DNA of 64,000 bases from Anaerolineales bacterium (lineage in GTDB: Bacteria > Chloroflexota > Anaerolineae > Anaerolineales > UBA4823). The translations under genes were made by a program, and so were the position numbers. The stretch is taken from the NCBI GenBank assembly GCA_016935755.1, contig JAFGQI010000117.1:1-64000 (forward strand). Reading direction: 5' to 3'. Shown here piece after piece: positions 35,364-44,792 of this stretch; the first letter of the stretch is position 1; every line of letters begins with the position of its first letter. The notes under the pieces were generated by a model. That model worked only from the letters and a program-made list of their open reading frames with translations, did no database searches and had not been told where the DNA came from.

Positions 35364-38180
35364 TTATCGTCTGTCATCTTCCTTGCGCCGGATAAACCAT
35401 TTTTGGATCTCAACCACCCAGAACAAGGATGTGGCAAGGACAAGACAAATCAGCAGTTCTGGCAGCGGCAAAGCCTTGGTATCGAAAATGGATTGCAGCG
35501 GAGGCAGGTAGATGACCGCCAGCTGCAGCAGGGTGGTCAAGACAACCGCTCCGGCCAGGGCGCGGTTGCTGAACAAACCAATCGTAAACAGCGAATCGCG
35601 CCGGGAGCGGATCGCCATCACATAGCCCATCTCCGATAGGGTCAGGGTGGAGAAAACCATCGTCTGCCACATTGGGTTGTCCATGCGCCAGTACCAGAAG
35701 CCCACCCCCAGCGAAATCAGGCCCATCAGTAAACCAAGCCAAAGGACATTCACCCCCAGGCCGCGGGCGAAGATGTTCTCTTTGGGCGGATAGGGTGGGC
35801 GCTGCATGGTGTTTTTTTCACCAAGCTCAACCCCCAGGGCCAGGCCCGGCAACCCATCTGTGACCAGATTGATCCACAAGATCTGGATAGGCAGGAGCGC
35901 CAGCGGCATCCCCAGGAAAGGCGCCAGCAGCATCACCCAGATCTCGCCGGCATTGCTGGTCAGGGTATATTGAATAAATTTACGAATGTTATCGTAAATA
36001 ATGCGCCCTTCGCGCACCGCGGCAACAATCGTGGCGAAATTGTCATCCAGCAGCACCATATCCGAAGCCTCTTTAGATACGTCGGTGCCAGCGATGCCCA
36101 TGGCTACGCCGATATCCGCTTTCTTAAGGGCCGGAGCATCATTAACCCCATCGCCTGTCATGGCAGCGATATGGCCGCGCCTTTGCAGAGCCTGGACGAT
36201 CTTCAGCTTATGCTCGGGTGTAACCCGAGCATATACCGAAACCTGCATCACCATCTCATCCAACGCTTCGGGGGTTAATTGGTTTAATTCCTGCCCAGTT
36301 ACAACCCGATCATCGGTCATGAAGCCAAGTTCCCTGGCGATATAACCTGCTGTCAGCGGGTGGTCGCCAGTGATCATGATGGGCCGCACGCCAGCAGTTC
36401 GACAGGTTTGCACGGCATCCTTCACTTCCCCACGAGCAGGATCGATCATGCCTACCATGCCAACAAAGATCAGCTCATCTTCAAACGGGAACCCATCCGG
36501 CGAGGATTGGACCGAGCTTTCAGGCAGATCTGCTAATGTGCGAAAGGCAAACCCTAAGACCCGCATGCCTTTTTTTGCCAGACGCTCGTTGCCAGCTTCA
36601 ATTCTCTCCCGCCAACCCTGATCCAGAGGCTCTATATGATCCTCTACCCAGACATGATCCGAGATTTCCAGCAGGCTGTCAATCGCGCCTTTGGCAAAGG
36701 CGACATAAGGCGTCCAACCTGTCTTTCCCAAGGCGTGCCAGTCCCAGATGCCCCGCAATGATTCTGTGATCTCGGCAGTTGAAGCTGGCATTTTATGCAC
36801 AGTAGTCATTCGCTTGCGATCCGAATCAAAAGGCGCTTCAGCCACCCGGGGGAAATTACCTTCCAGCAGGTTCTTGAATAATCCCATCCGAGCGGCCATC
36901 AACAACAAAGCGCCCTCGGTAGGGTCGCCTACAATTTGATAACCAGCCTGCTCTTCATCACGCTCCAGGACAGCATCGTTACACAACGCTCCCCCAGCCA
37001 GCATGAGCGGCAGCGCGGGCAGTGAACACATCACCTCCTGCTGCTTCTGATCCGGTTCCAGGATATCCGAAACCAGAGTCTTGCCGCGTAAGGGCAGGTT
37101 GATTTCCTGTTGGCTCAGATCAAATTCATGCTCAGCCATATCCAGGATCGTGACCGTCATTCGATTTTCAGTGAGTGTGCCGGTCTTATCAGAGCAAATC
37201 ACCGTCACCGAACCCAGCGCCTCCACGGCGGGGAGCTTGCGGATCAAAGCCTGGCGGTTGAGCATGCGGCGTGCGCCCAGGGCCAGGGCGATGGTTACCA
37301 CCGCTGGCAGCCCCTCAGGAATAGCCGCCACAGCCATGCCAATGGAAGTCAAAAGCAATACACGGATATCCTCTCCGCGCAGCAAACCCAGGATGAAAAC
37401 AATTACAACCAGGACAAAAGCAGCCAGCGCTAAACCCTTACCCAATTGGGTTAGCCGGCGCTGCAGCGGGGTGGGTTCCTGTCCAGCAGCCTGCATCAGC
37501 CCGGCAATGCGCCCCAGTTCAGTCTGCATCCCGGTGGCAGTGACCAGCGCTGCGCCGCGGCCATAAGTGACCGCAGTGCCCATAAACACCATGTTCCGCC
37601 GATCAGCCAGGGGAAGTTCGGCCCCACTTGCAGGAGAAAAATGAGCATCCTTGGTCACCGGAACCGATTCGCCCGTTAGTGCTGATTCCTGGGTGCTCAG
37701 GTTGACGCTCTCCACCAGGCGGCAATCGGCGGGGATCATATTCCCCGCTTCCAAGACAACAATATCCCCCGGCACCAGCGCTCGGGCGGAGATCTCCTGC
37801 AAATGCCCAGCCCGACGGACGCGCACGATCGGCACCGCCAACCGCTTCAGGGCGGCCATAGCTTGTTCAGCCTGGTATTCTTGCCGGAATCCCAACAGCG
37901 CGTTCAGAACTACGATGACCATGATCACGGCTGCGTCTTTATATTCACCCAGAAAAGCCGATATCAAAGTGGCAATGATCAGGACAACCACCATTGTCCC
38001 CTTGAACTGCTCGAATAGGATCACCCACGGACTCTTTACCCCCTGCTCCTCCAGCTCATTCGATCCATATTCCGTCTGCCGTCGGGTGACTTCGGCATGA
38101 TCTAATCCCCGCGCGAGATCACTTTTCAACTCAGTTAGCGCTTGCTCGGCGGATAACCGGTACCATTCAGTTGTAGTCAT
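35364..38180 (-). CDS. Cation-translocating P-type ATPase (Ca2+-type/P2A-like)
   Basis: [71 protein letters not shown]-terminal cation ATPase TM domain. ATG 38180 overlaps upstream TGA. Confidence 0.94.
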
Positions 38181-39190
38181 CTGGATGCTCGCTTTCTGAT
38201 CCAATAGCTGATCCCTTTCCACACAAGGAATGTAGATGCGGCTCCGATCAGCAGAGCCGAAAAATGCGTTACCATCCACAGGCCGCTTTGCAGCGCACTA
38301 CGATAACCATCTACTCGAGACCTGCTATCCTCCGGCAGCAAGAGAGGGCTGTCCCAGACAAAAAAAGGCAGGCGCTTTAGAAAGCCTTGCTGGATGCAGC
38401 CTTCCAGGCTAAAAATAAACAAATCATTGCAGTAATACCAGGCCAGGCGTAAATCCCGCGCGAATTCCTCCCAGGTGAGCGGAGGAACACTCAACCCGAG
38501 CTCAACCCCTCCGCCCGTACTGCCCAGACCCACACATTGCGCTTCAGGCGCATAGCTGGCGATAAAACCAGCCCCGTTAGGGCGGATAAAACTGCTGTAA
38601 AGCATCCACACTTCTCGATCGACCGATAAATCCACCAAACCAACCGCTCGCTGCAGCAAGGTAGAACCCGCCTTGCGCTCATCAGAAATGAAAGGGAATT
38701 GATAAGCATCCACTGGATAGCCATCGGCGTGGATTTGAGCTACCAGGGTCTGATAAATCGTGCGAGCTGTTTTTAAGTGCCGCCGGTTCCAAATGCGCCG
38801 GATAATCTTTGGAACCACTTTCCATTTTTGCTGCGAAAGCTCGGTGATTTCATTGATATCTGGCTCGATATCCAAGCCTATTCCAGCCCATTTCAAACCA
38901 TGCTCGGCTGTCCAGGTCATAAAATCATCATATCGTGCAGCCGCCTGGGGCGCATTATACAGGTTGAACCAATACCCTTGCTCCTTGGGCAATAGCAGCC
39001 AGGCGATAACAGGCACCCCAGCGCGATTCAGCTGGCGGACGGTATCGGCGCGTTCCGTGCTTAAATCCAGAATACCCAGGCTGAGATGCGCTTCTAAGGC
39101 TAACAAATCATCCAGGACCTGCTGGGTCATTATTTTTTGTAGGGCCTCTGCATCAAGTTCACATGCAAAGGTGAGTCGAGGTTTTGCCAT
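38177..39190 (-). CDS. Hypothetical protein: TIM-barrel/glycosidase-like N-terminal region with C-terminal TM helix
   Basis: GLKWAGIGLDIEPDINEI resembles the strand-4 acidic motif of GH18-type barrels; C-terminal hydrophobic segment WMVTHFSALLIGAASTFLVWKG; ATGA overlap with P-type ATPase. Confidence 0.5.
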   Translation of the reverse strand: MAKPRLTFACELDAEALQKIMTQQVLDDLLALEAHLSLGILDLSTERADTVRQLNRAGVPVIAWLLLPKEQGYWFNLYNAPQAAARYDDFMTWTAEHGLKWAGIGLDIEPDINEITELSQQKWKVVPKIIRRIWNRRHLKTARTIYQTLVAQIHADGYPVDAYQFPFISDERKAGSTLLQRAVGLVDLSVDREVWMLYSSFIRPNGAGFIASYAPEAQCVGLGSTGGGVELGLSVPPLTWEEFARDLRLAWYYCNDLFIFSLEGCIQQGFLKRLPFFVWDSPLLLPEDSRSRVDGYRSALQSGLWMVTHFSALLIGAASTFLVWKGISYWIRKRASR

Positions 39191-39334: not shown

Positions 39335-41089
39335 GTGATAGACTTGCCCATTATGCAAATAGAGAATCATAGTTTATCAACTGCTATTAATGATTTCCAC
39401 CGGGCGCGAAATCAGGCGGATCTGCAAGAGCTTATTTCACTGCTTACCGGAGAGCCAACACAGCTATTGTCCTTTGATGAAGTCATCGAGAAGCTAAAGC
39501 TTCTCGGCAGCGCTGAGCGTGGGCTGAAAGATATTCCGCTCGATGCGATCATCGGCAGCGTCGGTCGTTACACAGACTTCACTCGAGACTTCTTGCCCCG
39601 CCGAGAAGTAAACCCCGAACGGTGGGCGCGGGTGAAAATAGCCGCCTCTGGGCTGGTGGGATTGCCCCCGATCGTTGTATATCAAATCGGCGAAAGCTAT
39701 TTTGTTATCGATGGCAACCACCGTGTGTCCGTTGCCCGACAGTTTGGCGCCACCCATATCCAGGCATATGTGACCGAAATGAAAACTCGCGTCCCACTGA
39801 CGCCTGATGTAAAGCCAGATGATCTGATTCTGAAAGCGGAATACTCCAATTTTTTGGAACAGACCAGAATTGATGAACTGCGACCAGGCGCCGATTTAAG
39901 TGTAACCATTCCAGGGCAATACCCCAAACTGATCCTTCATATTGGTGTTCATCGCTACTTCATGGGGCTGGACTATAAACGCGACATCTCTTACGAAGAA
40001 GCTGTCACTCACTGGTATGATGCAGTGTATCTGCCTGTCATCCACATCATCCGAGATCAAGGCATCTTACACCGATTTCCGGACCGCACAGAAACAGACC
40101 TCTACCTGTGGCTGGCGGAGCACCGCGCCAACCTGGAAGAGCAGTTGGGTTGGCAGATTAAGACAGAGTATGCTGCCAGCAACTTGCTAGAAAAATATAG
40201 CTCTGGCGAGGCTACTACCATGAGCCGAATAGGCAGCAGGTTGTTAGAGATCATCCTGCCAGAGAAGCTTGAACCTGGCCCACCTGTGGGTCTTTGGCGC
40301 AGCACCCGCTCCAACCAATCCAAAAATTACCTCTTTGGTGAAATCCTGGTACCCGTGAATGGTAGAGAAGATGGCTGGTGCGCCCTGGAACAGGCCCTGA
40401 TCCTCGCCAGGCGCGAAGGCGCCCAAATCCATGGTCTGCATGTAATCGCCTCGGATTCCGAAGAAGAGAAACCGGAGGCTGACAGTATCCGGGCCGAATT
40501 TAACCGGCGCTGCAATGACGCTGGGATCAATGGAGCGTTGGTGATGGCAACAGGTGAAATTGCCCGGCAGATATGCCTGCATGCCAAAGTAACAGACCTG
40601 GTTGTCGCCAATCTGAGCTACCCACCTGCCCCACAGTTATTGGCTCGCCTCAGTTCTGGATTTCGCGATCTGCTCTTACGCTGCCCCAGGCCAATCCTGG
40701 CAACTCCACATACCGTTGCTCAACTTAGCCGTCCCCTGCTGGCATACGATGGCAGCCCCAAAGCTCAAGAAGCGCTCTACATCGCCACATATCTCTCGGG
40801 TAAGTGGCAAATCCCACTGGTGGTCGTGTGCGTCGAAGATTCCAGCCGGGTAACCAGTCAAACCCTGAACAGCGCGCTAGAATATCTGAGTCAGCACGGA
40901 GTAGGGGCAGAAGGCGTGATTGCCGAAGGCCCTGTTGGGCAGGCTGTCCTGGCAACCAGCCAGGCGCATAACTGTGATTTTCTGATCATGGGCGGTTATG
41001 GGTTTACCCCAGTTCTGGAAGCAGTGCTGGGAAGTTCGGTTGATCGAGTGCTGCGTGAGAGCCGGATGCCGATGCTGATATGCCGCTGA
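39335..41089 (+). CDS. ParB/sulfiredoxin-fold-like domain + uncharacterised HRYF/EEAV/TETDLYLW module + two C-terminal UspA-like domains
   Basis: IPLDAIIGSVGRYTDFTRDFLP...YFVIDGNHRVSVARQFGATHIQAYV; FLEQTRIDELRPG...HIGVHRYFMGLDYKRDISYEEAVTHWYDAVYLPVIHIIRDQGILHRFPDRTETDLYLWLAEHR; C-terminal GEILVPVNGREDGWCALEQALILARREGAQIHGLHVIA and RPLLAYDGSPKAQEALYIATYLSG...CDFLIMGGYGFTPVLEAVLGSSVDRVLRESRMPMLICR. Confidence 0.8.
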   Translation: MIDLPIMQIENHSLSTAINDFHRARNQADLQELISLLTGEPTQLLSFDEVIEKLKLLGSAERGLKDIPLDAIIGSVGRYTDFTRDFLPRREVNPERWARVKIAASGLVGLPPIVVYQIGESYFVIDGNHRVSVARQFGATHIQAYVTEMKTRVPLTPDVKPDDLILKAEYSNFLEQTRIDELRPGADLSVTIPGQYPKLILHIGVHRYFMGLDYKRDISYEEAVTHWYDAVYLPVIHIIRDQGILHRFPDRTETDLYLWLAEHRANLEEQLGWQIKTEYAASNLLEKYSSGEATTMSRIGSRLLEIILPEKLEPGPPVGLWRSTRSNQSKNYLFGEILVPVNGREDGWCALEQALILARREGAQIHGLHVIASDSEEEKPEADSIRAEFNRRCNDAGINGALVMATGEIARQICLHAKVTDLVVANLSYPPAPQLLARLSSGFRDLLLRCPRPILATPHTVAQLSRPLLAYDGSPKAQEALYIATYLSGKWQIPLVVVCVEDSSRVTSQTLNSALEYLSQHGVGAEGVIAEGPVGQAVLATSQAHNCDFLIMGGYGFTPVLEAVLGSSVDRVLRESRMPMLICR

Positions 41090-41102
41090 CAGGCGCAGCC
41101 GA

Positions 41103-42455
41103 CTACTCATCCCCTGCTGCTTTACTTTTCGCCTTTTTCCCCTTCTTAGATCCAGGCCCAGAAAAATCCTCGGTGAACTTTTCTGCTGCTTCTTCCAATG
41201 GGATTTCCGCCTCATAGGCCTGTTGAAGATACCAGCGGTGCGTGATGATCCAGAGATACAAGTCCGTCTCGGTCCGGCCAGGGAACTTCTCCAATATGCC
41301 CTGCTCGCGGATGATCTCAATCAACGGGAGATAGATTCGATCGTACCAGGATGCGACTGCTTCATCGTAGGGCGTCTCAGCCTGGCGTTGTTCGCCCAAA
41401 TACCAGCGGTGAACAGCAATATGCTCGCGAATTCTATTGCATTGACCGGGCAGGGTTGGAATGATTTGTGATCCCGGGCGCAGCTGATCCAGGCGTGTCA
41501 GTTCTAAAAATTCGACCCTTTCCTGCTCCAGGATGATATCATCCAGCCAGTGCGCCCGATTCACCAGCGAGATCAACTTTTTCACCGCTGGCAGCGGATA
41601 ATCGCCCAGCAGCTGCCTGGCAGCAGTGGTTTCAGCATCCATATCATCGGAATCATCTTCCCCCATTTGGTTGTACGCTCGTCGCAGATAACCTTGATAT
41701 TCCATCAACCACAGACATAAATCCGCCTCTGTGTGGCTGGAAAAATCCTTTAGAACGCCATGCTCCCGGATCATTACGACCAGGGGTTGATAGATCTGAT
41801 CATACCAGGAGACCACTGCTTCTTCGTAAGGGATTTCTTTACTGCGCCGTTCTCCCAAATACCAGCGGTGCAGATCAATGTGACGCAGGACTTCCGGGTA
41901 AAAATCCGGTCTGGATAATTCGATCTCTGCCTCTGGATAGAATTCGTTCAACCGTGTATTGAGCAAGAAATCTGCATACGCCTGCTTAAGATCAAGCTCA
42001 GATAATTGTAAATCGCTGGTCAGCTTGATTGGCGTATCGATCTCAATCACATAGGCATCAACATAATCCTGGCCGCGCTCACGCGCGACTGACACGCGGT
42101 GATTGCCATCTTTTACAAAATAGATATCACCAATCTGATAGAGTTCCACCGGGGGCAAGGGAACCGCTTCATAGTGCGCCAGATCAACGCTGATCCAACG
42201 ATCGCGTGTGCGGCGCTGTAGGGGCAGAAAGGCGCGATCAAAGTCATGGTACCGTCCCATGCTGCCGCAGATTTTATCAATTGGAACCTGCCGGAAACCG
42301 ATATAATGCTGCCCACGGATGGGCAGCCGTTTGCGGATTTCATCGAAGGGCAGGAGTTGGGTATCTTTCCTGGTCAGAATGCTGAGCACTTTACGCCAAA
42401 ACCCCTTGGACACGGCGCGCTCAAAATCCTTTTGAGCTAGCTGGCTGATCGTCAT
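41103..42455 (-). CDS. ParB/sulfiredoxin-fold-like domain + two tandem copies of the HRWYLG/EEAVxSWYD/TETDLYLW module
   Basis: VPIDKICGSMGRYHDFDRAFLP...YFVKDGNHRVSVARERG; copy 1 FLLNTRLNEFYPE...HIDLHRWYLGERRSKEIPYEEAVVSWYDQIYQPLVVMIREHGVLKDFSSHTEADLCLWLMEYQ; copy 2 FLELTRLDQLRPG...HIAVHRWYLGEQRQAETPYDEAVASWYDRIYLPLIEIIREQGILEKFPGRTETDLYLWIITHR. Confidence 0.8.
   Translation of the reverse strand: MTISQLAQKDFERAVSKGFWRKVLSILTRKDTQLLPFDEIRKRLPIRGQHYIGFRQVPIDKICGSMGRYHDFDRAFLPLQRRTRDRWISVDLAHYEAVPLPPVELYQIGDIYFVKDGNHRVSVARERGQDYVDAYVIEIDTPIKLTSDLQLSELDLKQAYADFLLNTRLNEFYPEAEIELSRPDFYPEVLRHIDLHRWYLGERRSKEIPYEEAVVSWYDQIYQPLVVMIREHGVLKDFSSHTEADLCLWLMEYQGYLRRAYNQMGEDDSDDMDAETTAARQLLGDYPLPAVKKLISLVNRAHWLDDIILEQERVEFLELTRLDQLRPGSQIIPTLPGQCNRIREHIAVHRWYLGEQRQAETPYDEAVASWYDRIYLPLIEIIREQGILEKFPGRTETDLYLWIITHRWYLQQAYEAEIPLEEAAEKFTEDFSGPGSKKGKKAKSKAAGDE
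41211..41510 (-). repeat. Internal protein-coding duplication, copy 2 of the HRWYLG/TETDLYLW module
   Basis: Approximate bounds from translated alignment with 41671-41970 and 39851-40155. Confidence 0.7.
41671..41970 (-). repeat. Internal protein-coding duplication, copy 1 of the HRWYLG/TETDLYLW module
   Basis: Approximate bounds from translated alignment. Confidence 0.7.
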
Positions 42456-42477: not shown

Positions 42478-43122
42478 TTAGAAGGTTCTGGGCATTTCAT
42501 GATCTATAACCGTCTCGCGATAGCCAAAGGTATTAATGACCTGCGTCCGGCCTAGGCGCGTTTCTGTAATGGTATCCGGGCGATAAATATGGATATGCCC
42601 GTGGAAATAATAAGAGGGCTGAAAAACGCTGATCAGCCAGCGAAAAGCTTTGATCCCCTGGTGGGGTAAATCCGCAGCGTCGTGTATCCCCACAGGCGGG
42701 GAATGGGTGATCAGAACATCCAGAAAGCGCCCATGCACCAGACGGTTGGCGAACAAGCCCGGTAATAGAGTAAAAACATGCGCCCACATATTCTGTTGCG
42801 TGTACTGGTAAGGACCTGGGCGGTAACGCAAGCTGCCCTCTACACCAGCCATCAGTAGACCCTTATGATTGTATGTCCGCCGGTGCAGGTCGACGCCTCC
42901 ATGCGGCGCGGTGCGCTGACCTTCCACGCTGTATTCGACAATCTTATCGTGGTTGCCGCGCACGAAAAAAAGCGGGGTATCCAGCGCATTAAGCACATAT
43001 TCCAGGTAATAATAAGCCAGATCCCCGCACCCAATCACAAGATCAACGCCGTTGAAACGACGGCGCACTTGCGGGCTGTAAAGAAAAGGGACAATCTGAT
43101 CGCTAAGGGATAAAACTCTCAT
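42478..43122 (-). CDS. Calcineurin-like metallophosphoesterase
   Basis: MRVLSLSDQ...DLVIGCGDLAYYYLEYVL...LFFVRGNHDK...DVLITHSPPVGIHDAADLPHQGIKAF...YFHGHIHIY. Confidence 0.88.
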   Translation of the reverse strand: MRVLSLSDQIVPFLYSPQVRRRFNGVDLVIGCGDLAYYYLEYVLNALDTPLFFVRGNHDKIVEYSVEGQRTAPHGGVDLHRRTYNHKGLLMAGVEGSLRYRPGPYQYTQQNMWAHVFTLLPGLFANRLVHGRFLDVLITHSPPVGIHDAADLPHQGIKAFRWLISVFQPSYYFHGHIHIYRPDTITETRLGRTQVINTFGYRETVIDHEMPRTF

Positions 43123-43952: not shown

Positions 43953-44067
43953 ACCAGCAGCATGGTGCTGGGGCGCCATTCTTGACGCACATGTGTTATA
44001 ATTTTTACGACGCAGCGCGTCATATTATCTATAGGTCAAATTGTCTACTCAAAAGGGAGAGAATGAC

Positions 44068-44439
44068 ATGTCCACACAAACTCAGGAAGAAGAGCCTGGA
44101 AAACCAGGTGAAGATAAAGAGGAACACTATCCTATGCTGGAAGCTGCCCGCAAGATCCTGCTGGCTGGTATTGGCGCCATGGCAATTGCCCAGGATGAGA
44201 TCGAAGAATTCGTTCAAAAGCTGGTCGATCGGGGTGAAATTGCTGAAAAAGACGGCCGCAAACTCGTGCGCGAGATTATGGATAAGCGCAGGAAACGCGT
44301 CGAACACGCTGAGGCTGAACTGACCACCCGGATAGAAGACATCCTCAACCGCATGAGTGTGCCAACCAAGAAAGACATCGATGCCTTGAGCGAAAAGATA
44401 GCCATTCTGACTCGCAAAGTCGAGCAGCTTAAAAAGTAA
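44068..44439 (+). CDS. Phasin-like (polyhydroxyalkanoate granule-associated protein-like) coiled-coil protein
   Basis: MLEAARKILLAGIGAMAIAQDEIEEFVQKLVDRGEIAEKDGRKLVREIMDKRRKR...coiled coil; GGGAG SD before ATG 44068; 5 nt before a PhaR-like gene. Confidence 0.75.
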   Translation: MSTQTQEEEPGKPGEDKEEHYPMLEAARKILLAGIGAMAIAQDEIEEFVQKLVDRGEIAEKDGRKLVREIMDKRRKRVEHAEAELTTRIEDILNRMSVPTKKDIDALSEKIAILTRKVEQLKK

Positions 44440-44444
44440 CCGGG

Positions 44445-44792
44445 ATGGTTTTGATCAAACGCTATCCTAACCGCAAGTTATATAGTACTGAAACAAAACA
44501 ATATATCAAGCTAGAAGAAATCGCAGCCCTCATTCGCCAGGGGGAAGAAATCCAGGTGACCGATCACGTCAGCGGGGCGGATATCACCGCGCTGACCCTC
44601 ACCCAGATTATCCTGGAACAAGAGAAGAAAAAAACCGGTCTGCTGACCATCTCTGTGCTGATCGGCCTGATTCGTTTCAGTGGAGTCGGTCTGCTCGCCC
44701 TGCAGCAGCAAATCCCCACCCGCGCAGATATCCAGCGGTTAAACCACCAGCTAGAAGAATTAGCCGCTAAAATCGAAGAAATCTCCAGATAA
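44445..44792 (+). CDS. PhaR-type PHA accumulation regulator DNA-binding domain protein
   Basis: IKRYPNRKLYSTETKQYIKLEEIAALIRQGEEIQVTDHVSGADITALTLTQIILEQE matches the PHB/PHA_acc_N signature; C-terminal coiled coil. Confidence 0.85.
   Translation: MVLIKRYPNRKLYSTETKQYIKLEEIAALIRQGEEIQVTDHVSGADITALTLTQIILEQEKKKTGLLTISVLIGLIRFSGVGLLALQQQIPTRADIQRLNHQLEELAAKIEEISR

Follow-up and report, generated by a model that had tools for sequence, protein, structure and literature searches.

The described proteins closest to the family reported here are the CTPase switches ParB, Noc and KorB, the kinases SerK and SbnI, and sulfiredoxin, whose catalytic cysteine is located in a G-C-H-R motif. The phosphorylation of free serine by SerK is a precedent for kinase activity within the ParB/sulfiredoxin fold, and SerK itself carried a ParB annotation until its function was discovered (PMC5120207). 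A survey of the ParB-CTPase fold (PNAS 2025) reported widespread fusions of the fold to other domains and binding of CTP, ATP or GTP; its main text makes no mention of DUF4032, Usp or metallophosphoesterase (PMC12704722). The window analysed in this study, a stretch of 64,000 nucleotides from the genome of an Anaerolineales bacterium (Chloroflexota), contains two convergent genes whose products, proteins A and B, have an N-terminal domain of this fold, and a gene of a calcineurin-like metallophosphoesterase (MPE) directly upstream of B. The A/B family is neither a partition ParB, a sulfiredoxin nor SerK, but forms a new subfamily of a known fold, in which both the architecture and the operon are new. 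The literature search resulted in no paper on DUF4032/PF13224 and in none on a ParB-like/metallophosphoesterase/Usp operon or on this architecture.

Protein A (584 aa, 39335-41089, plus strand) consists of a ParB/sulfiredoxin-fold domain, one C-terminal DUF4032 module (DUF4032-C) and tandem Usp domains. Protein B (450 aa, 41103-42455, minus strand) has the same N-terminal fold, two DUF4032-C modules and a lysine-rich C-terminal tail (41106-41168, minus strand), which was read from the translation and had a low model confidence. Both open reading frames (ORFs) were present, and the stop codons are separated by 13 bp. The alignment of A with B was ungapped over 251 aa with 44% identity (E=7e-72), and the module of A was 49% identical to the second copy of B over 127 aa (E=1e-36). 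An earlier note on this DNA had described the two ORFs with their coordinates, the 13 bp spacing, the N-terminal homology, one module in A and two in B, and two UspA-like domains on A. All of its descriptive statements on the two proteins hold.

The ParB/sulfiredoxin-like domain of B comprises approximately aa 48-142 (42030-42314, minus strand), as determined from the model, Foldseek, the family alignment and the profile search. The AlphaFold2 (AF2) model of B had a pLDDT of 90, and its Foldseek matches were Noc/ParB, sulfiredoxin, SbnI and SerK (entries 5x0g, 5x0b, 5ujd and 6nr6 for the last two). The E-values were modest, 6.8e-3 at best; the foremost matches, to Noc and sulfiredoxin, had probabilities of 0.95-1.0. 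When the PDB was searched with a profile of the isolated domain, the top eight chains were all ParB, sulfiredoxin or SbnI, and the register placed DGNHR on GERR and FLPR on QPRK. The PDB sequence search using the full proteins or profile A3 gave no ParB match, and the isolated domain was needed. The DGNHR motif of B is located at aa 116-120 (42096-42110, minus strand) according to the family alignment and the profile register. In A, the corresponding domain of approximately aa 45-152 (39467-39790, plus strand) was assigned by the alignment to B and the secondary structure of the model, the ParB_N match (0.037) being under the cut-off. Its DGNHR motif at aa 126-130 (39710-39724, plus strand) is the equivalent of the GERR/GCHR phosphate-binding motif.

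Residues D116, G117, R120, S122 and A124 (B numbering) were invariant in the 113 rows of the family alignment, and H119 was present in 112 of them. The family-specific insert GSxGRYxDFDRxFLP, which occupies aa 64-78 of B within the ParB/sulfiredoxin-like domain, was nearly invariant. The agreement of fold, register and motif supports the membership of the ParB/sulfiredoxin superfamily that the earlier note had proposed, although as a remote homology due to the modest E-values. The structure comparison envisaged there, performed with AF2 and Foldseek, matched B with ParB, sulfiredoxin and SerK.

The same comparisons set the A/B family apart from the described proteins. SerK and SbnI have the same fold with the nucleotide-binding motif at the same place, whereas the A/B family scores far under the SerK cut-off and the GSxGRYxDFDRxFLP insert is specific to it. 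In SerK, we are aware of neither a DUF4032 module nor a Usp or MPE linkage. With sulfiredoxin, the compact fold match had a probability of 1.0 and a TMt of 0.5-0.6. A sulfiredoxin-like repair, in which an oxidised cysteine of a partner protein would be reduced at the expense of ATP, is suggested by these highest-probability compact matches and by the stress association of Usp. However, the position of the GCHR cysteine was occupied by Asn in 71 and by His in 42 of the 113 rows, which, barring another conserved Cys, contradicts such a repair and makes it barely conceivable.

The N-terminal nucleoside triphosphate (NTP)-binding fold and the position of the P-motif are alike in the A/B family and in the ParB/Noc/KorB switches. 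Noc and ParB were among the closest solved folds, and the annotation of the Tsukamurella homologue reads chromosome partitioning protein ParB, as expected for relatives of ParB that bind DNA and function in the partition of chromosomes or plasmids or in nucleoid occlusion. In contrast to these, no helix-turn-helix or other DNA-binding domain was found in the Pfam searches of A, B and 68 family members, no ParA was present among the inspected neighbours, and the C-terminal domain and the partner genes are different. The ParB_N score of 14.5 bits was below the canonical cut-off of 26.3 bits, and ParABS includes neither an MPE partner nor Usp fusions. A partition role is, consequently, highly improbable. 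A census of the ParB fold that relies on PF02195 would probably overlook the family, whose scores stay under the cut-off of that model.

The module that follows this domain was determined with a hidden Markov model (HMM). The single copy of A is located at aa 162-269 (39818-40141, plus strand; module HMM 9e-48). The first copy of B comprises aa 152-259 (41679-42002, minus strand) and is additionally supported by hhalign to the kinase-DUF4032 family described below. The second comprises aa 305-412 (41220-41543, minus strand), with the best Pfam DUF4032 stretch at 370-429. The score of B with Pfam PF13224 (DUF4032) was 49.4 bits against the gathering cut-off of 23.8; A is absent from the Pfam DUF4032 matches, and its module is homologous to those of B. 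All 68 aligned family members matched DUF4032 at E<=0.5, with the best value of 1.7e-15. The common part is the C-terminal portion of the 163-position Pfam model, about 76-160 in the relatives and 105-160 in B, and the first part of the model is missing in the ParB-fold family, the matches thus falling short of full length. The earlier note had regarded the module as an uncharacterised repeat. It is uncharacterised in the sense that DUF4032 is a domain of unknown function, but it does have a name. The term repeat is appropriate for B, but not in general: most family members have a single copy, and tandem copies are exceptional, being present in eight members including B. A set of aromatic, His and Asp residues of the module is strongly conserved (H192, H196, W217, Y222, D245 and W249).

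In other DUF4032 proteins, the module is located C-terminally to a WaaP/Kdo-type kinase domain. The C-terminal helical module of these proteins is homologous to that of A and B, whereas the N-terminal domains are unrelated. The HMM built from A, B and their relatives matched a kinase-like protein, at its C-terminus, which is encoded on contig C92 of the Anaerolineales genome, and hhalign of the module against the kinase-DUF4032 family resulted in a probability of 97.3 and an E-value of 2.3e-11. In the kinase-DUF4032 alignment, K65, D155, N160 and D176, which we take to be the kinase catalytic residues, were invariant in 15 members. Judged from these sequence comparisons, the same DUF4032 module is placed after two unrelated phosphate-transfer folds.

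Two observations on the kinase form are added here. The same genome encodes a 408-aa WaaP-like kinase with a full-length DUF4032 (L001:790-2016). Among 201 Chloroflexota genomes, 25 had such a protein, and several actinomycete records did as well; some of the genes are located beside ugpC or a Usp gene. The mutual exclusion of kinase-DUF4032 and the core (ParB-fold domain plus DUF4032-C) across genomes was not significant (7/25 vs 83/201, p=0.19).

The MPE gene (214 aa, 42478-43122, minus strand), which lies outside the coordinates of the earlier note and had been missed there, immediately precedes B in the same orientation, and the gap of 22 bp between the two contains AGGAG. The product matched Pfam Metallophos at 7e-8 (33.6 bits, cut-off 21.5), and the active-site ligands D8, D34, N57, H58, H140, H174 and H176 were conserved. 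The linkage was determined in those 84 non-Usp loci of the family whose upstream sequence was long enough. This MPE was found directly upstream and on the same strand in 73 of the 84, often with an overlap of a few bases. One further MPE-core locus (L050), with an overlap caused by an over-long called ORF start, and another (L016), in which MPE and core are read through in frame, bring the total to 75. When the loci were recounted from the start of the domain under a stricter overlap rule, 71 plus the read-through were obtained, and three more were just past 450 bp. The read-through forms a single frame of 542 aa (L016:6290-7918), the junction of which retains a ribosome-binding-like sequence and an in-frame ATG (GGAGGTGATTATG). 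Due to this junction, the fusion may be the result of stop-codon loss or of an assembly error and gives weak support to the linkage.

The MPE-core order is also annotated in Tsukamurella (Actinomycetota) and Cetobacterium (Fusobacteriota), the evidence outside Chloroflexota being plasmid records. This MPE was present in 116 of 301 Chloroflexota genomes, as a single copy in each, and the core was present in 114 of these 116. The odds ratio of the co-occurrence was about 820 in a Fisher test uncorrected for phylogeny. In 27 genomes, both genes were present yet non-adjacent. The adjacency might be an inherited gene order without functional linkage, with the role of the core unrelated to the phosphatase. 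The sample is largely of one phylum, the test lacks a phylogenetic correction, and neighbour synteny is also common in Anaerolineales, all of which would fit this explanation. It is nevertheless improbable, as the same order occurs in Actinomycetota and Fusobacteriota and the two genes co-occur in the 27 genomes where they are apart. Judging from gene order and co-occurrence, the ParB-fold/DUF4032 family is functionally tied to a specific MPE, and the conservation of the linkage itself was directly observed.

The two Usp domains of A comprise approximately aa 334-584 (40334-41086, plus strand) and matched Pfam Usp at 9.8e-19 (68.7 bits). In Foldseek, the model of A matched the tandem USP protein TTHA0350, including its ATP-bound form, at 4.1e-16. 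An ATP-binding-type motif, G-2x-G-9x-GS (GGYGFTPVLEAVLGS), was found in the translation of the second Usp domain (40991-41035, plus strand). Protein A belongs to a well supported clade (100/100) of 17 Usp-fused proteins, and a second Usp-fused pair (L038/L063) is located elsewhere in the tree. In nine divergent Chloroflexota loci (L125, L128-L131, L133-L135, L139), Usp is N-terminal to the core, in the reverse order of A. Therefore, Usp has been joined to the core in both orders and at least twice, probably three times. None of the 16 assessable Usp-form genes had the MPE upstream; in three Usp-form loci, the MPE is convergent and just downstream. Another fusion was detected in an 877-aa protein (L142:7751-10384) with a FUSC_2/ArAE-like membrane region at aa 227-349 and the core at aa 569-814, and a homologue of this protein with a long ORF (717 aa) is present in the genome G111.

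The core was found in 126 of the 301 Chloroflexota genomes, and the observation on A and B is for this reason far beyond chance. Since each of the two proteins clusters with its own subfamily in the tree, A and B are old paralogues and not the result of a recent duplication. The convergent A-B pair was rejected as a conserved unit. The earlier note had proposed a survey of Chloroflexota for conserved pairing, which was determined to be rare: the arrangement of MPE, B and convergent A seen in the window recurred only in one locus (L011), and the conserved partner is the MPE beside B. A 159-aa protein with a ParB-like domain and no detectable DUF4032 module was observed in an arsenic-resistance neighbourhood on a plasmid of Rubrobacter tropicus (L007:3803-4282).

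Due to the co-inheritance with the MPE and the repeated Usp fusion, the A/B family is probably a phosphate-handling enzyme or switch. The earlier note had proposed enzymes or switches that depend on a nucleotide, in which the module would sense or bind something and Usp would form an additional nucleotide layer; this is plausible. A phosphate cycle is proposed because the module occurs behind two unrelated phosphate-transfer folds and its ParB-fold form is accompanied by a phosphatase. The family could quite possibly be, although this assignment is tentative, an NTP-dependent small-molecule phosphotransferase in which DUF4032 is the substrate or effector domain, the MPE acts in opposition and Usp adds ATP sensing. 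The ParB/sulfiredoxin domain would bind the nucleotide through DGNHR and pass its phosphate on to a small molecule that is bound by DUF4032, comparably to SerK and SbnI with serine. The MPE would remove the phosphate from the small molecule, and the two genes would constitute an on/off phosphate cycle. In A, the ATP-binding Usp domains would couple the core to the energy or stress state.

Several findings weigh against a phosphotransferase of this kind. Many proteins of the ParB fold are switches and not kinases (PMC12704722). The best candidate for a SerK-type catalytic acid, aa 71, is not invariant, being D in 84, E in 19, Q in 9 and A in 1 of the rows. The score with the SerK model NF053625 was 10.7 bits against a cut-off of 380, and the model was weakly matched by 7 of the 68 members (best E 0.024). 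The MPE is without the usual His of the first DxH metal motif, and the tally of neighbour Pfam domains revealed no sugar-transport link for the core in Chloroflexota.

The main alternative, an NTP-controlled switch or regulatory subunit, is possible as well, but rather doubtful. The binding of CTP, ATP or GTP, perhaps with slow hydrolysis, would move the DUF4032 helices and thereby activate or inactivate an effector such as the MPE or a transporter, with Usp and FUSC as alternative inputs or outputs. The switch proteins ParB, Noc and KorB are among the nearest structures, and the 2025 survey found binders of CTP, ATP and GTP with varied fusion domains (PMC12704722). The MPE linkage suits a regulator, and the Usp fusions in both orders and the FUSC-like membrane fusion (L142) suit a sensory module. 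However, the module is also present on WaaP-type kinases with conserved catalytic residues, where a substrate-binding role is simpler, and in our judgement its conserved His, Trp, Tyr and Asp residues resemble a binding site and not a lever.

For the proposed phosphotransferase, hints on the substrate were obtained from the neighbourhoods. In Cetobacterium, the context is a cluster of maltodextrin ATP-binding cassette (ABC) transporter, glycogen phosphorylase and malQ genes, and in Tsukamurella a sugar ABC transporter, ugpC and alpha-amylase. The neighbours in these two other phyla weakly indicate import of alpha-glucan or maltodextrin/trehalose. The gene ugpC was located just upstream of kinase-DUF4032 in Actinomyces, in two Arthrobacter (in one with a larger gap) and in one Chloroflexota genome. 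A plasmid of Arthrobacter sp. ERGS1:01 (L174) carries an otsA - otsB - ugpC - kinase-DUF4032 - GH13 cluster, which suggests a link of DUF4032 kinases to trehalose or alpha-glucan. In Chloroflexota, a MalK-type ABC was near the core in one locus only, and as the core neighbours there show no sugar link, no commitment to a sugar substrate is made. A more specific form of the cycle is unlikely: here the ParB-fold kinase and the MPE would together determine how much of a phosphorylated metabolite or messenger is present, which in turn would control carbohydrate import or energy state, with DUF4032 for substrate recognition and Usp as ATP sensor.

With these results, DUF4032 is placed in a second structural setting, and a role can be tested for it, that of a module standing behind two unrelated phosphate-transfer folds. 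An orphan ParB-fold family is tied to a dedicated phosphatase by adjacency, by presence and absence, and in three phyla, and Usp was recruited repeatedly, both N- and C-terminally to the core. Should the phosphate cycle prove real, much of Chloroflexota would possess a regulatory or metabolic system that is new.

A defence system and a phage origin were considered and rejected. For the former, PADLOC gave only weak generic matches (PD-Lambda-5_A, 0.0072, for A and PDC-S10 for the MPE), and only four weak partial viral matches were found for the latter. Directly upstream of A and divergent from it, a 337-aa protein is encoded at 38177-39190 (minus strand), with no Pfam match. Two small ORFs at 44041-44792 of the window resemble, by eye only, phasin-like and PhaR-type (polyhydroxybutyrate (PHB) accumulation regulator) proteins.

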